Source: Chloroflexota bacterium (lineage in GTDB: Bacteria; Chloroflexota; Anaerolineae; Anaerolineales; Anaerolineaceae). Taken from it: DNA of 64,000 nucleotides. The stretch spans positions 1 through 64,000 of the forward strand of contig JAAZNC010000104.1 in assembly GCA_012798455.1 (NCBI GenBank). Reading direction: 5' to 3'. The position numbers were made by a program, and so were the translations under genes. A model generated the notes under the pieces. The model worked only from the letters and a program-made list of their open reading frames with translations, did no database searches and was not told the origin of the DNA. This document shows positions 6,617-21,386 of this stretch, piece after piece. Each line of letters opens with the position of its first letter. Positions within the stretch are counted from its first letter, which is position 1.

Positions 6617-8297
<1,681 letters not shown>

Positions 8298-8298
8298 C

Positions 8299-8577
8299 AT
8301 GTCCAGCGTTCTCAATATCGCCATGTGGGTGATCACAGGATTTTTTCTTGGTACACTTTATAGTGTATCCATCCAGGCTGAGATCGACCTGGCAACCAAT
8401 CAAGGAATGCAACGCAACGCACTGTTTTCGATCGGACGCATCGTGCTGACAAGTGTTATTCTTGTTTACGGTTTTTCACGGAAAATGGAATGTGGTTTTG
8501 CCGGGCTGGGTGCCTTCTTGCTGGCAAAATACATAGCATTGTTCCTGATATTAAAAAGAAATCAAAAAGGAGAATAA
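8299..8577 (+). CDS. Small membrane protein, AtpR-like N-ATPase subunit
   Basis: 92 aa with three hydrophobic helices (MWVITGFFLGTLYSVS...NALFSIGRIVLTSVILVYGF...), located between atpC and atpB as in atpDCQRBEFAG operons; assignment mainly positional. Confidence 0.65.
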   Translation: MSSVLNIAMWVITGFFLGTLYSVSIQAEIDLATNQGMQRNALFSIGRIVLTSVILVYGFSRKMECGFAGLGAFLLAKYIALFLILKRNQKGE

Positions 8578-8579
8578 TC

Positions 8580-9215
8580 GTGGAGACCCTTATCCCTTAC
8601 CCCATCCTTGAGATCGCCGGATTCGCCATCACGAACACCGTGATCAACACCTGGATCGGGATGGGACTGCTGGTAGCGGGACTGTTGATCATCAAAGCCA
8701 CCAGCCCAGGAACACTGGACCAATTATATGAAATGTTGGAGGATCTCATTGGCGGGCTGGTTGACACGGACATGCTCAACCTCTATATGCCATTTTTGGG
8801 AACACTGATCATCTTCATTTTCATCGGCAACAATCTCAGTTTCCTGCCCGGACTGGGTTCTCCAAGCCAGGACATCAACACTCCCATCACGCTGGCACTG
8901 CTGGTTTTCGCTGCGGTGCATTACTTTGGCATCCGTGAAAAAGGGTTATTCCGTTATGCCAAAGACAGCGCCACACCCCTGGTCACCTTTCCCTTTGAGA
9001 TCATCGGGCAGATCAGCCGCACTGTTTCGCTTTCCATCCGTTTATTTGGAAACGTTATCAGCACCGAACTGGTGGTGGTGATCATCTCGCAACTGGTGCC
9101 GATCGGCGCCCCGATCGTCATGATCGCGTTAAGCCTTTTGACCGGCACACTACAAGCCTACATATTTACCGCGCTGGCAGGTTCATATATATCCAGCGCC
9201 ATTCGCACCGAATGA
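8580..9215 (+). CDS. atpB: ATP synthase a subunit (GTG start)
   Basis: [21 protein letters not shown]...[21 protein letters not shown] with the conserved Arg motif RLFGN. Confidence 0.92.
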
Positions 9216-9240
9216 CTGGAAAAAGAAAGGAGCAAATTTG

Positions 9241-9513
9241 ATGTCATCTTTAAGCCCGGAGGCACTGGTAACCGTTGTAACGATCATTGTCAGTGGTGTC
9301 AGTATCACGCTGGGAACCATGGTTCCTGCACTGGTAGAAGGGAAAGCCGTACAAAAAGCGCTGGATGCCATGGCACGCCAGCCCGAAATGGCAAACCAGA
9401 TCCGAACGACCTTGCTGATCTCCATGGCACTGCTGGAATCAACCGCCATTTACGTTCTGCTGGTAGTTCTGGTACTGCTGTTCGCCAACCCACTGCTAAC
9501 CAGATTTTTTTAA
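9241..9513 (+). CDS. atpE: ATP synthase c subunit, predicted Na+-binding type
   Basis: [52 protein letters not shown] loop and ES-T-x-x-Y Na+ motif. Confidence 0.94.
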
Positions 9514-9524
9514 AAGGATAGAGC

Positions 9525-10313
9525 ATGTTCAAGATCGATCTAACCACCATCCTGTTTCAGGTTATCAATTTCCTGGTACTGGCTGGGCTGTTGTATTTGC
9601 TGTTCTTCAAGAACGCCATAAAGAGAGGGAAAGAAAAGCGGGAGAAAAACCTGCGAGAATCACAGGAACTTGAGAAGAATGTGCTTGCATCAGAGCAATT
9701 AAAGCACGAGCTGGAAGCGGAATACCAGAAAATTGATGAAAAAGCCAGAACGATCATTGAACAGGAGCATGAGAAATTCAAGGTAGAAGCCAAGACCATC
9801 ATCGTCAAAGCGCAGCATGAAGCGGACAAGTTGTTACAACAAGCCCGACAAGAAGCCCACGCACTACAACAAAAATCCTTTGCCGAATTTCATGAAGCCA
9901 TCATCGATACGGTGATCGAGAGCAGCCGCATCCTGCTGGAACAAACCGCTCCAGACGAGATCCACCATGCACTGGTCAACCAGATGAATCAGCGCATCTG
10001 GGAAATGGGCAAGAAAGAAGTGCAAACCATTGAAACCATCCGTAAATCGCTCAAAGACCGCGAGCCGCTGGTAAAGCTGATCACCGCCAAACCCCTGACC
10101 GTAGAAGAACAGGGCACACTGGTGCGTACTTTCAGTGCGCTGGCTGACCGGAATATTCGCCTGGATGTGGAAGTGGATCCTTCCCTCACAGCAGGTTTAC
10201 AGGTGAGAATGGGGGATCTATTGTTCGATAATTCTTACCAGGCTAAATTATTGGTACTGCGCGAGCAAGTCAAAAAAGAATTTGACAAACTAACGGCAGA
10301 AGACAATGCGTGA
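9525..10313 (+). CDS. atpF: ATP synthase b subunit with delta-like C-terminus
   Basis: N-terminal TM plus long charged helix (FLVLAGLLYLLFFKNAIKRGKEKREKNL...); C-terminal VDPSLTAGLQVRMGDLLFDNSYQAKLLVLRE resembles the delta subunit. Confidence 0.88.
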   Translation: MFKIDLTTILFQVINFLVLAGLLYLLFFKNAIKRGKEKREKNLRESQELEKNVLASEQLKHELEAEYQKIDEKARTIIEQEHEKFKVEAKTIIVKAQHEADKLLQQARQEAHALQQKSFAEFHEAIIDTVIESSRILLEQTAPDEIHHALVNQMNQRIWEMGKKEVQTIETIRKSLKDREPLVKLITAKPLTVEEQGTLVRTFSALADRNIRLDVEVDPSLTAGLQVRMGDLLFDNSYQAKLLVLREQVKKEFDKLTAEDNA

Positions 10314-11994
10314 TCTACAAACCTCTCTTAAAATCCTGACCCGCTCATTTGAGAACCTGTTCTCGGGCGAGGAGAAGAAAACTGCTACCGCCGCTCACAG
10401 AAGAAGAAAGTCAGTCTTTCGCTCTGCAGGTTGGATCGAAAGCAGGTCTCACAACATCAGGTCTTCCAAAAGCAACCATCCGGAGATCGAGAAACTACTC
10501 ACAACCATCCAGCAGGGGTTCAGGAAATCACCTCAAGACAATGTGATCATCCAATCGGTGGGCACCGTGCAACATATTGGCAATGGTGTAGCGCATATCT
10601 CTGGTTTGCCATATACAGGGATCGATGAACTGGTGATCTTCGAAAATGGTGTGGAGGGACTGACACTGAACCTGGGGATGGACAGGATCGATGTCATTCT
10701 GCTGGGAGTGGATGAAGGCATCCACGGTGGTGATCTGGTTTTGAGCATGGATAAGCGGCTGACTTTTCCGGTCGGTTCCGGTGCGCTGGGCAGGATCCTC
10801 GATCCCCTTGGCAAAGCGCTGGATGAGAAAGCGGATTTCGAAGCCGTGCAGCATTTGCCCATCGAAAGACGCGCACCCGGCATCATCGAACGGGCTACCA
10901 TCGACACTCCCCTGTATACCGGCACCAAAAAAATCGATGCACTGATCCCGATCGGGCGTGGTCAGCGCGAGCTGATCGCCGGGGATCGCCAAACGGGCAA
11001 AACCACACTAGCGATTGACACCATTTTGAACCAAAAAGATCAAGATGTGATCTGCATCTATGTTGCTATCGGTCAGAAGAAATCTTCCCTGCTGCCCACC
11101 CTGCGATTGCTAGGGCAGAGAGGTGCCATGAAATATACTACCGTCATCAGCGCCAGCCCCGATGACCCGCCTGCTCTGCGTTATATTGCGCCCTTTGCAG
11201 GCTGCACGCTGGCAGAATACTTCGCCGGGTTAGGCAAAGATGTGTTGATCATCTACGATGATTTGAGCAAACATGCGGATGCTTACCGTGAGATCAGCTT
11301 GCTGTTGAAACGTCCGCCAGGGCGGGAAGCTTATCCAGGGGACATTTTCTATCTACATTCCCGGTTGCTGGAGCGCTCGGGGAAATGGAATGAAGATGTT
11401 GGAGGAGGCTCCATCACCGCCATGCCGATCGTGAACCTACAGCAGGGAAATGTTGCCAGCTACATCCCTACCAACCTTATATCGATCTGTGACGGGCAGA
11501 TCATTCTGGACAGCGACTTGTTTAACCGGTCCGTCTTCCCGGCGATCAACATCGACCTTTCCGTATCCCGGGTGGGTGGGGCAGCACAGATCCCGGCGAT
11601 CCGGGAGATCGCCAGCCAGTTGAAACTGGAGATTGCGCAGTTCGGAGAAATTGAGAAATTCGCCCAATTTGGAAGTGAGATCGACGAGGAGACACGTGCC
11701 CGCATCGAGCGCGGCAAGATCATCCAAGCGGCTTTCTCCCAAAACGCACACCAGCCTTATTCCAGCAGTGAGGAATTCCTATTTCTGTACGCATTGGCAT
11801 CAGGAATCTTGTTCGAGATCCCGGATGGGCAGATCACCGATTTTGAAAACAGGTTATTCATCAAGCTGCATGCTTCCCCGCCCGATTTTGTCAATTATCT
11901 ATCCAAGGATTCTATCCTATGCGACGAAAATAGAATAGAATTGGACGAGTTTATCCGTTCGGTGATATCAGTAGACCAGTTGGAAGGAAAGTAA
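10306..11994 (+). CDS. atpA: ATP synthase alpha subunit (N-terminally extended ORF)
   Basis: IPIGRGQRELIAGDRQTGKTTLAIDTILNQKDQDVICIYVAIGQK...VSRVGGAAQIPAIREIASQLKLE. Confidence 0.95.
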   Translation: MRDLQTSLKILTRSFENLFSGEEKKTATAAHRRRKSVFRSAGWIESRSHNIRSSKSNHPEIEKLLTTIQQGFRKSPQDNVIIQSVGTVQHIGNGVAHISGLPYTGIDELVIFENGVEGLTLNLGMDRIDVILLGVDEGIHGGDLVLSMDKRLTFPVGSGALGRILDPLGKALDEKADFEAVQHLPIERRAPGIIERATIDTPLYTGTKKIDALIPIGRGQRELIAGDRQTGKTTLAIDTILNQKDQDVICIYVAIGQKKSSLLPTLRLLGQRGAMKYTTVISASPDDPPALRYIAPFAGCTLAEYFAGLGKDVLIIYDDLSKHADAYREISLLLKRPPGREAYPGDIFYLHSRLLERSGKWNEDVGGGSITAMPIVNLQQGNVASYIPTNLISICDGQIILDSDLFNRSVFPAINIDLSVSRVGGAAQIPAIREIASQLKLEIAQFGEIEKFAQFGSEIDEETRARIERGKIIQAAFSQNAHQPYSSSEEFLFLYALASGILFEIPDGQITDFENRLFIKLHASPPDFVNYLSKDSILCDENRIELDEFIRSVISVDQLEGK

Positions 11995-11995
11995 C

Positions 11996-12316
11996 ATGAA
12001 AAAAATGATCATGGCGGTCATTCCAAGAGATGAAGCGGAGCAGGTTTTGGATGCGCTCATCAATGCCGGTCATACCGCCACTTTTTCCGAGACCAAAGGC
12101 GGCATGCTGCGACAGTCGCAATATACGCTATTCATCGCAGTAGATGCAGAGCAAGAGGACAATGTTTGTTCCATCATTAAAACAAACTGCACCACCAATG
12201 TAGCTGTGGATGATGAACTGGAGAACGAGCTAACCTCCCTGTCAAATGAAGGTGCAGCAAAAGTTGGGGGAGCGATAGTATTCATCTGGGATATCCAAAA
12301 AATAGAAGTCTATTAA
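11996..12316 (+). CDS. PII-like cyclic-di-AMP receptor family protein (DarA/PstA-like)
   Basis: MKKMIMAVIPRDEAEQVLDALINAGHTATFSETKGGMLRQSQYTLFIAV...VGGAIVFIWDI, matching the remembered TGGFLR...TLLIGV and VGGATVFVL pattern; SD lies inside the atpA 3' end. Confidence 0.75.
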   Translation: MKKMIMAVIPRDEAEQVLDALINAGHTATFSETKGGMLRQSQYTLFIAVDAEQEDNVCSIIKTNCTTNVAVDDELENELTSLSNEGAAKVGGAIVFIWDIQKIEVY

Positions 12317-12428: not shown

Positions 12429-13460
12429 ATGAATAAAAGAATAACCGCAAAAGACGTAGCCGAAGCAGCCGGGGTTTCACGCACTACCGTTTCCTTTGTA
12501 CTCAATAATGTAGATGGAATGCGAATCAGTGAAGAAACCCGTCAAAAGGTATTGGATGCTGCCGAAGCCCTCAATTACCATCCGGACGCCACCGCCCGCA
12601 GCATGGTTAAAGGGAAAACCTTTATCCTGGGTTTTGTGGTGCGACAAGAAGCAGACAAAGCGTATGCTGACCTGTTGCTGCCGGAGGTGATGCGCGGGAT
12701 CAGCGAAGTAGCCGGCGAACACGGTTATCATCTGCTGTTCAAGCCAGTTCCCCCTGAAGATGAGAAGAACAGCCTGACCACCCTCTTCCTGGAAAGGCAG
12801 GTGGATGGGCTGATCGTATCTGGACCTTTGGCAAACGATCAGGAGATCGTGGATCTGTTCAATGCGAATGCCCCCATCATCCTGCAAGGGCGCATCGATT
12901 ATCCCAATATCCCTTCGGTGGATATCAATAACCGCAAGGCTGCCGAGAAAGCCATGAACCATTTGATCCGACTGGGGCACAAGCGCATTGCCATCATCAC
13001 CAATGCCTCTCTGAGGTATTCCAGCAGCAAAGATCGTCTCAGCGGGTATCGGCGGGCATTAGAGGGAGCGGGAATTCCTTTCGATGAAAGACTGATTTTT
13101 TACGGCGATCGCACTCCTGATTCAGGGTTCCATGCCATGAAAGAGATATTGGCGTTAAACGACCGTCCCACGGCTGTTTTCATCGCATCAGACACCGTTG
13201 CACTGGGAAGTTTGAATGCGCTTTATCAGGATTATATCCGTGTGCCTGAAGACATGGCCATCATGGGATTTGACGACATCCCCCTTTCACGGCACCTAGC
13301 CCCACCGCTTTCCACCATCAATATTCCTGCCCATGGTTTGGGTTGGAATGCGGCGAATCTATTAATCAAATGGCTCGACCAGGGCGAGGTTCCTGACGAC
13401 GATTGCATTCTAGACACAGAAATCATCATCCGTGAATCATGCGGTTCACGAAAACAATAA
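12429..13460 (+). CDS. LacI family transcriptional regulator
   Basis: MNKRITAKDVAEAAGVSRTTVSFVLNNVDGMRISEETRQKVLDAAEALNYHPDATARSM. Confidence 0.96.
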   Translation: MNKRITAKDVAEAAGVSRTTVSFVLNNVDGMRISEETRQKVLDAAEALNYHPDATARSMVKGKTFILGFVVRQEADKAYADLLLPEVMRGISEVAGEHGYHLLFKPVPPEDEKNSLTTLFLERQVDGLIVSGPLANDQEIVDLFNANAPIILQGRIDYPNIPSVDINNRKAAEKAMNHLIRLGHKRIAIITNASLRYSSSKDRLSGYRRALEGAGIPFDERLIFYGDRTPDSGFHAMKEILALNDRPTAVFIASDTVALGSLNALYQDYIRVPEDMAIMGFDDIPLSRHLAPPLSTINIPAHGLGWNAANLLIKWLDQGEVPDDDCILDTEIIIRESCGSRKQ

Positions 13461-13547: not shown

Positions 13548-14867
13548 ATGAAAAAAAGATTTTGGTTACTGATTTCGCTATTTACCGTCTTCGCGATGGT
13601 AATGGCAGCCTGCCAACCGGCTGCGGCAGAAGAACCAGCCGTAATGGAAGAAGCCCTCGCTGAAGAAGAAGTTGTGGTTGAAGATCCCTGCATGGGTGCA
13701 CAGCCCGGTGATGAAATCACCCTTCTGTATCAGTGGTCCGGCGTAGAAGAAGAGAAATTGAACCAGATCCTGGCTCCCTTTGTGGAACAGTGCGGTGTAG
13801 TTTTGAAACCAGAATCCACCCGCGACCAGGCTCTGCTCGACACCAAGGTACAGGCTGGAACTCCCCCGGATGTAGCGTTCTGGAATGTCGCACAACTGGA
13901 ACAATACAAAGATGTTCTGTTTTCAATGGACACTCTAGGAGCGCATGGGGAAAATTATGCTGACTTCTTCAAAAGCCCCGGAACCATCGATGGGGTGTGG
14001 CTCGGTCTTCCTGTAAAAGCTGACATCAAGACCATCATCTGGTACAGCCCAGCAGTTTTTGCAGCCAAAGGCTACACCGTTCCCACCACCTGGGATGAAT
14101 TGGATGCCCTGGTGGAAAGTATGGTCGCCAATGGCGATGTGCCGTGGAGTATGGGCATGGAATCGGGTGATGCAACCGGTTGGACTGGTTCTGACTTCAT
14201 TCAGGACATCCTGCTGGTTCAGCAAGGTCCCGACTATGTAATGGGTTTGATCTCCGGCGATATCGCTTACGATGACGCCGGTGTGAAACAAGCCTACGAA
14301 ACCTACGGAAAATGGGCAGCGGATGCAATCTACACCGTTGGTGGCGCCGAAGGAACCCTTTCTACCGGCTTCAATGACGCGATCTTGAAAGTCTTCTCCG
14401 ATCCGCCAGAGGCAATGATGGTAAAGCAATCCGGTTTCGCCGGTGGCACTGTTGCCGCTCAATATCCCGATCTGGAATACGGTGCTGATTATGATTTCTT
14501 TGCAGTTCCAGGTGCGCAGGGTTTGCAGGGTGGTGCTGATTGGTTGATGGTTTTCAATGACACCCCAGCGGTACGTGCTCTGATCGCTTACCTATCTTCA
14601 CTGGAAGGTGGCGCAAATTGGGCAAAAGCCAGCTTTGATCTTTCACCCAACAAAGGTGCAGACGGCAACTATGTGGATGCCTCATTAATCAAAAAGGGCG
14701 CAGCCCTGGCTAACACCAGCGGTTTCACTCCCGACCTTGGCGATACCATCCCCGGCGGCTTTGGCAGCGCCGAATGGGCAGCCATTGTCAGCTATGTCAA
14801 CGGCGGCGATCTGGATGCCGCATTGGCGTCTGTTGCTGCAGCTCAAGCTGAAGCATTAGGCAAATAA
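13548..14867 (+). CDS. Sugar ABC transporter substrate-binding lipoprotein
   Basis: Lipobox FAMVMAACQP; family 1 SBP pattern (NQILAPFVEQCGVVLKPES...VPTTWDELDALVESM). Confidence 0.92.
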   Translation: MKKRFWLLISLFTVFAMVMAACQPAAAEEPAVMEEALAEEEVVVEDPCMGAQPGDEITLLYQWSGVEEEKLNQILAPFVEQCGVVLKPESTRDQALLDTKVQAGTPPDVAFWNVAQLEQYKDVLFSMDTLGAHGENYADFFKSPGTIDGVWLGLPVKADIKTIIWYSPAVFAAKGYTVPTTWDELDALVESMVANGDVPWSMGMESGDATGWTGSDFIQDILLVQQGPDYVMGLISGDIAYDDAGVKQAYETYGKWAADAIYTVGGAEGTLSTGFNDAILKVFSDPPEAMMVKQSGFAGGTVAAQYPDLEYGADYDFFAVPGAQGLQGGADWLMVFNDTPAVRALIAYLSSLEGGANWAKASFDLSPNKGADGNYVDASLIKKGAALANTSGFTPDLGDTIPGGFGSAEWAAIVSYVNGGDLDAALASVAAAQAEALGK

Positions 14868-14961: not shown

Positions 14962-15891
14962 ATGAAGAAACAGAAGTCAACTACCGGCATCATGCGGCAG
15001 AGACCATTCACGCCATGGATATATCTGCTACCCGCTTTGCTCATCATGGCTACTTTTATTATTTATCCGGGTGCCAATACATTCTACCTAAGCGTACGGA
15101 ACAACGATAATAGCGGATGGGCAGGCACCCGCTGCATCGCCGGGCAACCTTGCTGGGGGGTTTTCGAGAACTATCGCTATGCTCTGACCAACACCATCAT
15201 GCAGACCGCTTTTTTGAACAACCTGAAATGGATCATCTTGATGGTCAGTGGTACTGTGATCATCGGTTTATTGATCGCAGTGCTGGCGGATAAGGTCAAG
15301 TATGAAGCGCTTGCCAAATCGATCATTTTTCTACCCATGGCAATCTCATTCGTAGGGGCAGGCGTGATATGGAAATTCATGTACAACTATGGTTCCAGCC
15401 AGGTACAGATCGGGCTACTGAACGCCATTGTCACTGCATTGGGAGGAAAGCCAGTCTCATGGTTGACCGAACCGGGCATCAACACCATTGCGCTGATTAT
15501 CGTAGGGGTATGGATGTGGACCGGTTTTTGTATGACCATCCTGGCTGCTGCACTGAAAGGGGTATCCACCGAGATCCTGGAAGCAGCCCGCGTGGATGGT
15601 GCCACTGAATGGCAGGTATTCTGGAAGATCATCGTCCCACAGATCATGCCCACCATCACCGTTGTGATCACTACCATGATCATCAATGTGCTCAAGATCT
15701 TTGATATCGTCTATGTGATGACCGGCGGAAACTACGGCACAGAGGTGATTGCCAACCGTATGTACACCGAGATGTACAAGAATTACGACCCCGGCAGAGC
15801 ATCAGCTATCGCTGTCATTCTGATCTTGGTAATCATCCCGGTGATGATCTTCAATATTCACCGCTTCCAGAAACAGGAGGAGATCCGATGA
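14962..15891 (+). CDS. Sugar ABC transporter permease (MalF/UgpA type)
   Basis: Binding-protein-dependent permease motif EILEAARVDGATEWQVFWKIIVPQIMPTI; SD AAGGAGGTGA upstream. Confidence 0.95.
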   Translation: MKKQKSTTGIMRQRPFTPWIYLLPALLIMATFIIYPGANTFYLSVRNNDNSGWAGTRCIAGQPCWGVFENYRYALTNTIMQTAFLNNLKWIILMVSGTVIIGLLIAVLADKVKYEALAKSIIFLPMAISFVGAGVIWKFMYNYGSSQVQIGLLNAIVTALGGKPVSWLTEPGINTIALIIVGVWMWTGFCMTILAAALKGVSTEILEAARVDGATEWQVFWKIIVPQIMPTITVVITTMIINVLKIFDIVYVMTGGNYGTEVIANRMYTEMYKNYDPGRASAIAVILILVIIPVMIFNIHRFQKQEEIR

Positions 15892-17072
15892 AAAAGACCG
15901 CTATTTTCCATCGCTTAAGGAACATCCCTGTGCATGTGGTTCTGATCGGGATGTGCCTTATGTGGATGATCCCCACTCTGGGATTACTGGTCACCTCTTT
16001 CCGCCCTCTCCAAGATATCAACTCCTCCGGCTGGTGGACCATCTTTACCAAACCCAAGGGATATGATGAGTACCAGACATATTGTGGCAGCTGTCATGGA
16101 GATGACGGGGCAGCCATCCCGGAAGCTGATCTCACCGATCCTGATCTTGTGCAGCAATACCGACGTTCGATCACCCTCACACCATTGCTTGAGCAGGATA
16201 TCAACGGGCAACCTCACCTGGGAGACATGAGCCTACCGAATGAGGATCAGACGGCTACCATCGCGACCTATATGCGCCGACTATCTGGTATTGATACCAA
16301 CACCAAATTCACACTAGACAACTATATCGATGCCATTACCGGCTACCGCGGCAACAACACCTATCGCAGCGATTGCGCCAGTGGGACACAATCGCTGGAC
16401 CTGTATTGCGACATCCGCGATCTTGCCAACCCACGTGGGATGGGACGTGCATTCTTGAACAGTCTGTTGGTTGCCATTCCCTGCACGGTTTTTCCGATCC
16501 TGATCGCATCTTTTGCAGCTTATGCTTTCTCGTGGATGGATTTTAAAGGTCGCCAGTGGCTATTTGCATTATTGGTGGGATTACAAGTAGTTCCACTGCA
16601 GATGACCCTCATCCCAATTTCGCGGTTGTATGCCGGACTAGGACTGAACGGTACTTTCCTGGGAATATGGTTATTCCATACCGGTTTTGGGTTGCCCTAT
16701 GCTATTTATCTGATGCGCAATTTCTTGGGCAGTCTTCCCAAGGAGGTCTTTGAATCGGCATATATCGATGGCGCTTCCCACTGGACAGCCTTTACCAAAC
16801 TGGCAATGCCACTTTCCGTCCCAGCACTGGCTTCCCTGGCAATCTTCCAATTCCTATGGATCTGGAATGATCTGTTGGTGGCACTGGTTTTCTTGGGTGG
16901 TCAACACCCCGTGCTCACCTATCAAATCGGGAACATGGTAACATCGCTCGGTGCCGGATGGCATCTGCTCACCGCTGCGGCTTTCATTTCGATGATCTTG
17001 CCGATGATCATTTTCTTCACCCTGCAGAAATATTTCGTGCGCGGTTTATTGGCTGGTTCGGTCAAGGGCTAG
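15888..17072 (+). CDS. Sugar ABC transporter permease (MalG type) with inserted c-type cytochrome domain
   Basis: EAA loop VFESAYIDGASHWTAFTKLAMPLSVPALASLAIFQFLWIWND; between TM1 and FTLDNYIDAITG lies YDEYQTYCGSCHGDDGAAIPEADLTDPDL...GDMSLPNEDQTATIATYMRRLSG. Confidence 0.93.
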   Translation: MKKTAIFHRLRNIPVHVVLIGMCLMWMIPTLGLLVTSFRPLQDINSSGWWTIFTKPKGYDEYQTYCGSCHGDDGAAIPEADLTDPDLVQQYRRSITLTPLLEQDINGQPHLGDMSLPNEDQTATIATYMRRLSGIDTNTKFTLDNYIDAITGYRGNNTYRSDCASGTQSLDLYCDIRDLANPRGMGRAFLNSLLVAIPCTVFPILIASFAAYAFSWMDFKGRQWLFALLVGLQVVPLQMTLIPISRLYAGLGLNGTFLGIWLFHTGFGLPYAIYLMRNFLGSLPKEVFESAYIDGASHWTAFTKLAMPLSVPALASLAIFQFLWIWNDLLVALVFLGGQHPVLTYQIGNMVTSLGAGWHLLTAAAFISMILPMIIFFTLQKYFVRGLLAGSVKG

Positions 17073-17088
17073 AAGAAATAAGGATAGC

Positions 17089-18855
17089 ATGATTTCGTTT
17101 TTTGATCTATTGAAAAATAGGATCGATGTTAAAAGTGTGCCTTTCAGCCGACCAGGATCGCGTCTGGCGCTCTCCCAGTATTTCGATCACAGCAGTCTTT
17201 ACCTGCATGCGACTGAAAGGCTCATCCATTTTTTTCCCGGCATTGAATCGTATGTCAAACGGATGCCATTTCTGGAAGAACTAACTTTCATCGATGCGAA
17301 CCAACAACCACTTGATTTTGAAATCATCAGCTACCCGCATGTGCTTGAATTCGATACCAGGTTAGGTACATTCCGCTTTTTATATCAAGGCGAACATACC
17401 ATCTGTATTCAACTCCCTCACAACCATAAAACCGGCATCCAATGCAGAGTAAATGCCCTGGAATGGAGCGCCAGCCAAGATGGAGGAGTGATCACGTCTT
17501 ATCGTTTTCTTCAATACAGCACCAATGGAACAGTTCTTGTGAACCAGCTCGCCAAGGAAGCGGTATATTCTTCTTTCACTTTTTTGGTCGAAAGCGGATC
17601 TGAAAGTTCCATCTTATTTTCGATCGCAGAGGACATCCAAACCCCTCTCAAACACCTCCCCTGGAAAGCGGCACTGGAGCAAGCTCGCCTAGGATGGCAG
17701 CCATGGCTCGAAAATATCCCGGAAGTGGCGGAGGAATACCAGCCCACTTACACCTACGCCTGGTGGGTGTTGCTGAACAACATGTTCAGTCCCAAGGGCA
17801 ATTTGAAATACAATGTGCTCGCTCCCTCCAAGAAGAACTATATCGGCATCTGGCTGTGGGATAACGCGCTGCATGCGCTTGCACTACGCCACATCGACCC
17901 GCAACTGGCTCGCGACCAGATCCGCGCTTTCTTGGCGCACCAGCAGCCCGATGGCATGCTGCCGGACGCCATCTTTGACGATGGCATCGTGACCGAAATC
18001 GATCACCCGGTGCGGGCAAAGGTAACCAAACCGCCTATTTTGGCATGGGCAGCTTTGAAGATCCATGCCATTGACCCGGATATTGACTTTTTGGACGAGA
18101 TCTATGCAGCGTTGGGAAAGTGGAATCGCTGGTGGTTCCAGGAAAATGACCCCGATCATGACGGGTATATCCAGTATAATCATCCTTTCTCTTCCGGGCT
18201 GGATGACAACCCCACCTGGGATTTTGGGTTGCCAGTGGAAACACCGGATATCAATACGTACCTTTATATTCAAATGCAAGCCCTGATGGAAATGGCTACG
18301 AATCTGGGGAAAAATGAGGATGCCCAATTATGGAAAACGCGTGCTCAGATTCTGCTGGATGCCATGCTACATTTTTCCTGGGACGAAGAAAAAGGATTGT
18401 TCCAAGCGCTCTACCAAGAAAAGCCATTGAACGTCTTGACCCCTCTGAATCTCTATCCTCTATGGACAGGAGCATTACCAGCAGATATGGTTGAAAAGCT
18501 GGTAGCTCATCTGAATGACCCTGCCGAATTTGGGGGAGATGTGATAATCCCATCGGTAGCACGTTGCGACCCCACATTCGATGCTGACTGTATGTGGCGC
18601 GGACCGGTGTGGGCAAACATCAACTACTTTTTCATCGAAGCACTGCAAAAAAATGAAAAAAAAGCGCTGGCTGTCAAACTGCGTGATAAGACCCTGGCTC
18701 TCATCATGCAAAACGCAGGCATTTATGAATACTATAATGCCAACACGGGAAAACCAGGCAGCAGAGCTGCACCTGCCTTTGGTTGGAGCGCGGCTATCTT
18801 CATCGACCTGGCGATCCAAGCCAGTCAGGAAAAAATTTGTAAAAATAATATGTAA
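17089..18855 (+). CDS. Glycoside hydrolase, GH63-like (alpha/alpha)6-barrel
   Basis: GIWLWDNALHALALRHIDPQLARDQIRAFLAHQQPDGMLPDAI...CMWRGPVWANINYFFIEAL; family-level call by eye. Confidence 0.75.
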   Translation: MISFFDLLKNRIDVKSVPFSRPGSRLALSQYFDHSSLYLHATERLIHFFPGIESYVKRMPFLEELTFIDANQQPLDFEIISYPHVLEFDTRLGTFRFLYQGEHTICIQLPHNHKTGIQCRVNALEWSASQDGGVITSYRFLQYSTNGTVLVNQLAKEAVYSSFTFLVESGSESSILFSIAEDIQTPLKHLPWKAALEQARLGWQPWLENIPEVAEEYQPTYTYAWWVLLNNMFSPKGNLKYNVLAPSKKNYIGIWLWDNALHALALRHIDPQLARDQIRAFLAHQQPDGMLPDAIFDDGIVTEIDHPVRAKVTKPPILAWAALKIHAIDPDIDFLDEIYAALGKWNRWWFQENDPDHDGYIQYNHPFSSGLDDNPTWDFGLPVETPDINTYLYIQMQALMEMATNLGKNEDAQLWKTRAQILLDAMLHFSWDEEKGLFQALYQEKPLNVLTPLNLYPLWTGALPADMVEKLVAHLNDPAEFGGDVIIPSVARCDPTFDADCMWRGPVWANINYFFIEALQKNEKKALAVKLRDKTLALIMQNAGIYEYYNANTGKPGSRAAPAFGWSAAIFIDLAIQASQEKICKNNM

Positions 18856-18864
18856 GGAAAGATA

Positions 18865-20484
18865 ATGCGAGAAAAAAGAACACCCTGGTATAAGAATGCA
18901 GTTTTTTATGAAGTTTCCGCTCGCGCTTACTTTGATTCCAACGGAGACGGCATCGGTGATATCAAGGGTGTGACCATGAAATTGGACTATATCAAACAGC
19001 TTGGGGTAGACTGCATCTGGCTGCTGCCAATTTTCCCTTCTCCCCTGGTTGATGACGGATATGATATATCCGATTACTACAACATCCATCCAGACCTGGG
19101 CAGCATTGCAGATTTCAAAGAATTGATCGAGGAAACACACAAACACGGAATGCGCATCATCGCCGACCTGGTTGTCAACCATACTTCTGACCAGTGTGAA
19201 TGGTTCAAGCAAGCCGAAGGCGATAAGAATTCCCCTTACCGTGACTATTATGTATGGAGTGACAGCAACCAGCGCTATACGGATGCGCGTATCATTTTCG
19301 TCGATACCGAAACCTCTAATTGGTCGTGGAGCGAAAAAGCCCAGAAATATTACTGGCACCGTTTCTATGCCTGCCAGCCTGATCTCAATTACGATAATCC
19401 GGCTGTGCGCGAAGAGATGAAGAATATCATGCGATTCTGGTTAGACATGGGCATCGATGGATTTCGCGCAGATGCCGTGCCCTATTTGATCGAACGAGAA
19501 GGCACCAATTGTGAAAATCTGCCCGAAACGCACGCTTATCTGAAAGAAATGCGCAGACTGATCGACGAAGAATATCCAGATTGTATTCTGCTAGCAGAAG
19601 CCAACCAATGGCCGCAGGATCTGCGCCCGTATTTTGCCAATGGGGATGAGTTCCACATGGCTTTTCAGTTCCCGCTAATGCCACGCATCTTCAAAGCGCT
19701 GGCAAAAAGCGATTGCTCCCCCATCATCGAGATCCTTAAAATGACTCCCGAGATTCCGGATTCCTGCCAATGGTGCACCTTCCTGCGCAACCATGATGAA
19801 TTGACCCTCGAAATGGTCACCGAAGAAGATCGCCAATTTCTATGGGATTTCTATGCACCGGTGAAGCGCATGCGCCAGAATCTGGGTATTCGCCGCCGCC
19901 TGGCACCGCTGCTGGACGGGGACGCACGCAAGATCGCACTTTTAAATGCCGTCCTTTTTGCATTGCCAGGAACGCCCATCATCTACTACGGGGATGAGAT
20001 CGGGATGGGAGATAATATCTATCTTGAAGATCGTGACGGGGTGCGCACCCCCATGCAATGGACAAACGGAAAGAACGCTGGTTTTTCCAATACCGATGAA
20101 GATAACCTTTACCTACCAATCATCAAGAGTGATCAATTCTCCTACACCAAGATCAATGTGGCAGCTCAGCTGGAAGATCCCCATTCGCTGTTCCACCAGA
20201 TCCGTCATTTATTGGAGATCCGTAAGAAAAACCCGGTCTGGGCGGAGGGATCTTACGAGATCATTTATAACAGTGATTACCCCGCCCTGCTGACCATCAA
20301 GCGTACGGATGGCACAAACACAAGTGTAACCTTCCACAATCTGTCTGATAAAATCATCCCGATCGATCTTTCTGATGTGGGGGTGGCGGGACGCAAGCTG
20401 GTCGATCTGGTGCGAGGTACAGATCTAGAAAAATCGAAACTAGCGCTAGCCCCCTATGCTTATTTGTGGTTAATTGAACAATAA
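18865..20484 (+). CDS. treS: GH13 enzyme, trehalose synthase (TreS)-like
   Basis: WYKNAVFYEVSARAYFDSNGDGIGDIKG...GIDGFRADAVPYLIEREGTNCENLPETH...FLRNHDELTLEMV...GTPIIYYGDEIGMGDNIYLEDRDGVRTPMQW. Confidence 0.88.
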   Translation: MREKRTPWYKNAVFYEVSARAYFDSNGDGIGDIKGVTMKLDYIKQLGVDCIWLLPIFPSPLVDDGYDISDYYNIHPDLGSIADFKELIEETHKHGMRIIADLVVNHTSDQCEWFKQAEGDKNSPYRDYYVWSDSNQRYTDARIIFVDTETSNWSWSEKAQKYYWHRFYACQPDLNYDNPAVREEMKNIMRFWLDMGIDGFRADAVPYLIEREGTNCENLPETHAYLKEMRRLIDEEYPDCILLAEANQWPQDLRPYFANGDEFHMAFQFPLMPRIFKALAKSDCSPIIEILKMTPEIPDSCQWCTFLRNHDELTLEMVTEEDRQFLWDFYAPVKRMRQNLGIRRRLAPLLDGDARKIALLNAVLFALPGTPIIYYGDEIGMGDNIYLEDRDGVRTPMQWTNGKNAGFSNTDEDNLYLPIIKSDQFSYTKINVAAQLEDPHSLFHQIRHLLEIRKKNPVWAEGSYEIIYNSDYPALLTIKRTDGTNTSVTFHNLSDKIIPIDLSDVGVAGRKLVDLVRGTDLEKSKLALAPYAYLWLIEQ

Positions 20485-20525: not shown

Positions 20526-21386
20526 ATGATCGAAGAAACCAAAAAACGTTTAGAGAATATCCAGGCGATCGAGCCTTATCTGAATGCTATGCGCAATACT
20601 TCACTGGGAAGTTGGAAGACAGCGTTGAACCGCATTCAAACCATCCACCGGTATCGCAGTGAACTGCTGGAAATACTAGATATTTTAAATAATGGGAGCG
20701 AAAAACCTCTGGCACATGATCTGGCAGCCGCACAAAACTGGATCGTCATTGGCAGTCAAAAAGGACTGGTCAGCAATTTCAATCGCCGCTTATTGGAGCT
20801 ACTGGAAAAAGAGATCAACGATCTGGCAAACTTACCTCAAGCTGTCAGACCTACGATCATATTGATCAGCAACCGCCCATCCTACTTTTATTCTTTCTTC
20901 TCCAAACACGCGCTACGCCTCCATATCGTACCCTTTGACTATACCCTAATCCATCCCCACGCAGCACAACTGGCAAAGAGAATAGGACCCTTTGTATCCG
21001 GCGGATCGGCGTTTTTCTATTTCTACAACCAGTATACCAAAAGTCAGAATTCCATCCCGGTCAAACAAACGCCATACCATACTATACTTTCCTCCAAAAC
21101 AGAAAAAGAAACAGAAAGTGCCATCTGGCCTCCTTATTTATTAGACAGCGATACAGCTCTGCTACGAGAGAAGATCCGTGGCATGCTGGAATCCCTTGAA
21201 TTCCAAGAAATCCTCACCAATTCCATCGCCAGCGAAAATGCCTTCCGTTATCGCGTCTTAGAGGAAGCCAAAAACAACACCGATCGCCTACTTAATGAAT
21301 TGAGCATTGAACTGGCAATGGCTAGAAAAAAAGAGATCACCAAAGAGATCCAAGAACTAGCAGTAGCAGCCGGGTTGGTTCAGTGA
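20526..21386 (+). CDS. atpG: ATP synthase gamma subunit (N-ATPase type), displaced from the operon
   Basis: N-term MIEETKKRLENIQAIEPYLNAMRNTSLGSWKTALNRIQTIHRY; C-term RLLNELSIELAMARKKEITKEIQELAVAAGLVQ; middle GSQKGLVSNFNRRLLE resembles the gamma subunit SDRGLCGGFN region. Confidence 0.85.
   Translation: MIEETKKRLENIQAIEPYLNAMRNTSLGSWKTALNRIQTIHRYRSELLEILDILNNGSEKPLAHDLAAAQNWIVIGSQKGLVSNFNRRLLELLEKEINDLANLPQAVRPTIILISNRPSYFYSFFSKHALRLHIVPFDYTLIHPHAAQLAKRIGPFVSGGSAFFYFYNQYTKSQNSIPVKQTPYHTILSSKTEKETESAIWPPYLLDSDTALLREKIRGMLESLEFQEILTNSIASENAFRYRVLEEAKNNTDRLLNELSIELAMARKKEITKEIQELAVAAGLVQ

Follow-up and report, generated by a model that had tools for sequence, protein, structure and literature searches.

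Among described sugar ABC importers, MalG of E. coli (MalFGK2) and SugB of mycobacteria (LpqY-SugABC) share the permease core, the EAA loop and the topology of the permease described here, but their TM1-TM2 loop is short and carries no cytochrome domain. A further relative is the Sinorhizobium meliloti protein which, from its operon layout, we take to be AglG of the aglEFGAK alpha-glucoside importer. It is 44% identical overall to our permease; both proteins have GWW after TM1 and a large insert in the TM1-TM2 loop, and both belong to an operon that encodes a binding protein, two permeases and a GH13 enzyme. The S. meliloti insert, however, contains no CxxCH and has no similarity to cytochromes, unlike that of our permease. 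The latter shares its CxxCH, its helices, including the C-terminal one, and its fold with CcoP (cbb3 subunit III) and other PF13442 monoheme cytochromes. It differs from CcoP in two respects: CcoP is part of a respiratory enzyme whereas our domain is fused into a transporter, and the distal Met of CcoP (GQMP) is replaced by a His (GQPH). We know of no ABC importer with a cytochrome c domain, and we found no earlier description of a cytochrome-permease fusion in the open-access literature.

The permease and its operon

The window, that is, the whole stretch of 64,000 nucleotides that was analysed, comes from the class Anaerolineae (phylum Chloroflexota), a group of mostly oxygen-avoiding bacteria. 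A sequence-only reading of this DNA had described a continuous frame for a MalG-type sugar permease with an EAA loop, into which a c-type cytochrome domain was embedded at positions 16053 to 16289. As indicated by our analysis, the frame at positions 15888 to 17072 of the forward strand is indeed open, encodes 394 amino acids and gives the translation first stated, and the embedded stretch corresponds to residues 56 to 134. The nature of the permease was also borne out. Pfam recognised both BPD_transp_1 and Cytochrome_CBB3 in this frame, the former at residues 204 to 386 (positions 16497 to 17045, forward strand; E = 1.5e-15), a core that includes the EAA loop. The closest NCBIfam and PDB entries were MalG, UgpE, GlcU and SugB, and the AF2 model of the whole permease matched the SugB and MalG structures. 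By its core, its MalG-like fold and its operon, this AglG/MalG-type protein belongs to the MalFG/AglFG permease family.

The genes of the operon all lie on the forward strand. A LacI-family regulator (positions 12429 to 13460; NCBIfam, synteny) is followed by a sugar substrate-binding lipoprotein (13548 to 14867), assigned by weak NCBIfam sugar-binding matches and by synteny in nearly all loci, and by a MalF-type partner permease (14962 to 15891; Pfam). Downstream of the cytochrome-bearing permease are an MGH1-like (GH63-related) glycoside hydrolase (17089 to 18855; Pfam PF22422, 6.3e-76; synteny) and a TreS-family GH13 enzyme, annotated as maltose alpha-D-glucosyltransferase / trehalose synthase (18865 to 20484; TIGR02456, 811 bits for a cut-off of 678; synteny). 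The regulator, the binding protein, MalF, the cytochrome-MalG protein and the conserved TreS-family enzyme recur in most loci; the MGH1-like hydrolase is a variable member, present in many of the fused ones. Both the binding protein and the MalF-type partner of an importer are encoded in the operon, and the 394-aa permease most likely serves as second transmembrane subunit in an ABC importer of the AglFG/MalFG type that handles alpha-glucosides (trehalose/maltose-like). Judging from the TreS-family and MGH1-like neighbours of the permease, the substrate may be trehalose, maltose or another alpha-glucoside. No ABC ATPase signature LSGG[QM][RQ] was found in the 64,000-nt window, and the importer probably borrows an ATPase encoded elsewhere in the genome.

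The sugar operon sits between ATP synthase genes (window positions 6620 to 12316 and 20526 to 21386). Upstream are the genes for an alpha/beta-family ATPase, subunit a, a fused b/OSCP protein, alpha and a cyclic-di-AMP receptor, and downstream is the gene for gamma; the fusion of b to delta (OSCP) is a single frame (9525 to 10313). This arrangement of ATP synthase and sugar operon is repeated in two genus members (L043 and L100). In Pelolinea submarina (L044), nothing but the receptor gene stands between alpha and gamma, and the sugar operon comes after them.

The cytochrome c domain of the TM1-TM2 loop

TM1 of the permease was located by hydropathy at residues 17 to 35 (positions 15936 to 15992, forward strand), and the tail that precedes it has four K/R and no acidic residue, as for a cytoplasmic N-terminus. 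The loop after TM1 is extracytoplasmic in MalG and SugB, and both the hydropathy and the positive-inside charge pattern of our permease agree with the same placement of its TM1-TM2 loop. The extracytoplasmic location of the cytochrome domain, which had been expected from the sequence, is thus supported by homology and by the charge pattern, and nothing placing it in the cytoplasm was seen.

The second part of the same loop contains two cysteines, C163 and C174 (positions 16374 to 16409, forward strand), that are present in 62/62 homologues and likely form a disulfide. The MalF partner also has an invariant pair, C58/C64 (62/62), in its first extracytoplasmic loop. Both pairs are found in relatives devoid of the cytochrome, meaning that they are not tied to it. 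Sister AglG-type permeases carry at the same position of the loop a different insert, some 90 residues long (L020, L022-L024, L027-L030; L130:4423-5562), for which no Pfam match was obtained in the two that were scanned. The occurrence of unrelated inserts at one site points to the TM1-TM2 loop as a swapping place for extracytoplasmic modules.

The cytochrome domain itself encompasses residues 57 to 133 (positions 16056 to 16286, forward strand). Within the permease, Cytochrome_CBB3 (PF13442) was matched at residues 57 to 129 with an E-value of 7.2e-5; the domain alone gave 7.4e-6 and 26.6 bits, just under the Pfam cut-off of 27, and same-genus orthologues passed this cut-off (31.8, 29.1 and 28.6 bits). 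A profile made from the 62 homologous domains reached the CcoP subunit of a cbb3 oxidase in the PDB at 6.7e-8. Since the matches of the whole-permease AF2 model are permeases and are silent on the domain, the latter was modelled separately, with a mean pLDDT of 90.5 (about 95 in the core). The top 50 PDB matches of this model in Foldseek were all c-type cytochromes or heme-c-bearing complexes; the best probability was 0.99, with modest E-values (0.02 and up) that, in our view, reflect how small the domain is and that its model lacks heme. Taken together, the Pfam match, the fold model, the structural search and the profile indicate that the embedded cytochrome noticed in the sequence is genuine: motif and modelled fold identify it as a class-I cytochrome c predicted to bind heme.

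The heme c attachment motif C66-G-S-C69-H70 (positions 16083 to 16097, forward strand) was kept throughout, as C66, C69, H70 and the following G71 were invariant in 62/62 aligned homologues. Covalent attachment of heme c to the permease domain is considered very probable. The sequence-only reading had also put forward Met114 as an axial ligand, a proposal that we had to reject because a Met occupies this position in only 2/62 homologues. The distal axial Met of class-I cytochromes c was not found in the permease domain; position 111 is a Met in 35 and a Leu in 24 of the 62 homologues. Instead, a His was present at position 110 (positions 16215 to 16217, forward strand) in 60/62, the remaining two carrying a His at 108. 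The GQPH sequence that contains His110 aligns onto GQMP of CcoP, the bearer of its distal Met, from which we infer that a His stands in the place of this ligand. Bis-His ligation occurs in some c-type cytochromes, so that the absent Met counts against the Met/His subtype only. From this alignment, bis-His ligation with His110 as the distal ligand appears reasonably probable.

Distribution, selection and heme maturation

We looked for the fusion in 61 related genomes and, in 17 of them, found matches that span the full length and include the cytochrome insert (58 to 100% identity). Scanning one genome per species, a set that overlaps in part with these 17, yielded 62 fused loci, every one with CxxCH. 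The full fusion was present in 26 of the 396 genomes sampled in the class, from more than 10 families, and it is encoded by the isolates P. submarina MO-CFX1 (complete chromosome), Thermanaerothrix daxensis and Levilinea saccharolytica. The fusion is conserved across the class Anaerolineae. In a tree of the permease core, from which the insert had been left out, the cytochrome state traced back to the basal node of a clade with 74 rows (support 96), which is most simply explained by a single gain early in the class and a few subsequent losses. Several lineages have dropped the domain and kept the permease, meaning that transport does not need it.

The domain has diverged more than the permease core (mean identities of 67% and 92%, respectively), its surface being variable and its heme-related residues fixed. 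For the closest pair, the values calculated on the domain were 0.084 for dN and 1.81 for dS. These comparisons indicate that purifying selection acts on the domain, and does so equally in the CcmE-lacking clade. A decaying or relaxed domain where Ccm is missing was rejected on the basis of the domain/core dN ratios, which ranged from 2.3 to 4.6 in the CcmE-minus clade and from 1.3 to 25 in the CcmE-plus groups.

The search for ccm/ccs genes, which had been suggested as a check on the heme, gave a divided answer. CcmE was present in 54/64 fused genomes, with CcmF and CcmC-type matches in most; in the window's genus, by contrast, only a CcmF/NrfE-type heme lyase was left. Neither CcmE, nor a CcmC-type match, nor ResB was found in the five genomes of this genus and in a further genome, G020. 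The lyase is kept in 3/5 of the genus genomes and in G020, and in the sequence from G000 its heme-handling motif WGGYWSWDP is intact. This lone lyase gene (L036:7730-9718, on G000:C112) adjoins two esterase-like genes. System II maturation was rejected, since no ResB was found in the 61 genomes. As CcmE and CcmC-type proteins are missing from the window's genus and from G020, formation of the holo-protein there would need an unrecognised route.

A gene for a cytochrome with five CxxCH motifs adjoins that of a ferric-reductase-like NAD(P)H oxidoreductase in the window's genome, G002, P. submarina and G020 (pentaheme cytochrome c and Ferric_reduct/FAD/NAD membrane protein at L125:5372-7850, L126:5389-7885, L127:7045-9504 and L038:8990-11449; the five motifs were counted in L125-L127). 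Together, the two proteins may serve to move electrons across the membrane. Since the lyase and the pentaheme cytochrome have been kept, the window's genus probably does produce c-type cytochromes, with the heme c probably attached by an unrecognised route that dispenses with CcmE and CcmC. The permease contains the only PF13442 (CBB3-type) domain found in each of seven genomes, namely complete P. submarina, G020 and the five genus members, and COX1, subunit I of heme-copper oxidases, is absent from all seven. Family searches in the window's genus and P. submarina brought up no further c-type cytochrome apart from the pentaheme protein.

CcmE was detected in 53/63 insert-bearing and 5/11 insert-less cases (Fisher p = 0.01, uncorrected for kinship). 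That genomes losing the insert also tend to lose CcmE was not upheld, as this association rests on only one to three independent tree pairs.

Proposed role of the domain and alternatives

We propose, with a probability of roughly 0.45, that the domain is a heme module which responds to redox state and sits at the mouth of an importer for alpha-glucosides, where it would tune docking or gating. The heme c would be attached at C66 and C69, with His70 as proximal and probably His110 as distal ligand, and the resulting heme would be of low potential, suited to anaerobes. Held on short linkers, the domain would lie above the mouth of the permease, the docking place of the substrate-binding protein, and its heme could swap electrons with extracytoplasmic carriers such as the pentaheme cytochrome and its NAD(P)H-ferric-reductase-like partner. 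The redox state of the heme would then tune docking or gating, and uptake of a fermentable sugar would thereby track the redox state outside the membrane. Redox gating of transport, as suggested by the position of the domain, is a tentative proposal. Its extension to class-wide redox-gated sugar importers, with heme attached by a reduced, CcmF-only route in the window's genus, is doubtful.

The fold and the heme motif would suit a tethered electron relay, for which the permease only provides an anchor and which leaves sugar transport unregulated. A monoheme partner could be required, given that family searches in the window's genus and P. submarina turned up no c-type cytochrome besides the permease and the pentaheme protein; yet such a relay, which could be a free or lipid-anchored cytochrome, does not explain the constant placement in one alpha-glucoside permease and operon, and multiheme (Paired_CXXCH) proteins also occur in relatives without the fusion. 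We consider this relay rather unlikely. If the cytochrome fold had been retained as a heme-free structural module for docking of the binding protein, with the cysteines forming a disulfide or a metal site, one could understand the absence of CcmE and CcmC-type matches from the window's genus, the unrelated insert found at the same position of related permeases and the fast evolution of the domain surface (67% against 92% for the core). Neither a disulfide nor docking would need the proximal His and G71, however, and these are as invariant as the cysteines. Moreover, a His stands at the usual place of the distal ligand in 62/62 homologues, CcmE accompanies the fusion in 54/64 genomes, and the window's genus itself keeps the CcmF/NrfE lyase and a 5-heme cytochrome, all of which makes a heme-free module distinctly improbable.

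A His-ligated heme could also bind NO, CO, O2 or sulfide and regulate uptake as a sensor. A distal site without Met could permit ligand exchange, and hosts that are largely anaerobes would presumably gain from sensing O2 or NO, but a conserved His on the distal side speaks for six-coordinate heme of the electron-transfer type, and no sensor-type features were found; we regard a sensor as very improbable. As for an assembly chimera or a frameshift artefact, the genome of the window is fragmented (117 contigs), but the same fusion recurs in isolate genomes, including a complete one, and in dozens of assemblies that are independent of one another. An artefact, which the sequence-only reading had already thought unlikely, was rejected on these grounds, its probability being close to nil.

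If the heme is real and the redox-responsive gating that we favour holds true, the domain would constitute a direct physical link between extracytoplasmic electron transfer and substrate uptake in bacteria that are abundant in digesters and sediments. The window's genus raises a second question, namely how a cytochrome with five CxxCH matures without CcmE or CcmC. Because the named isolates P. submarina, T. daxensis and L. saccharolytica carry the fusion, the role of the domain can be tested at once. In L. saccharolytica, one contig (NZ_LGCM01000045.1) encodes the fused permease twice (L084 and L085). The two copies are followed by the same downstream genes and lie near opposite ends of the contig, which may reflect either a genuine duplication or a repeat produced in assembly.
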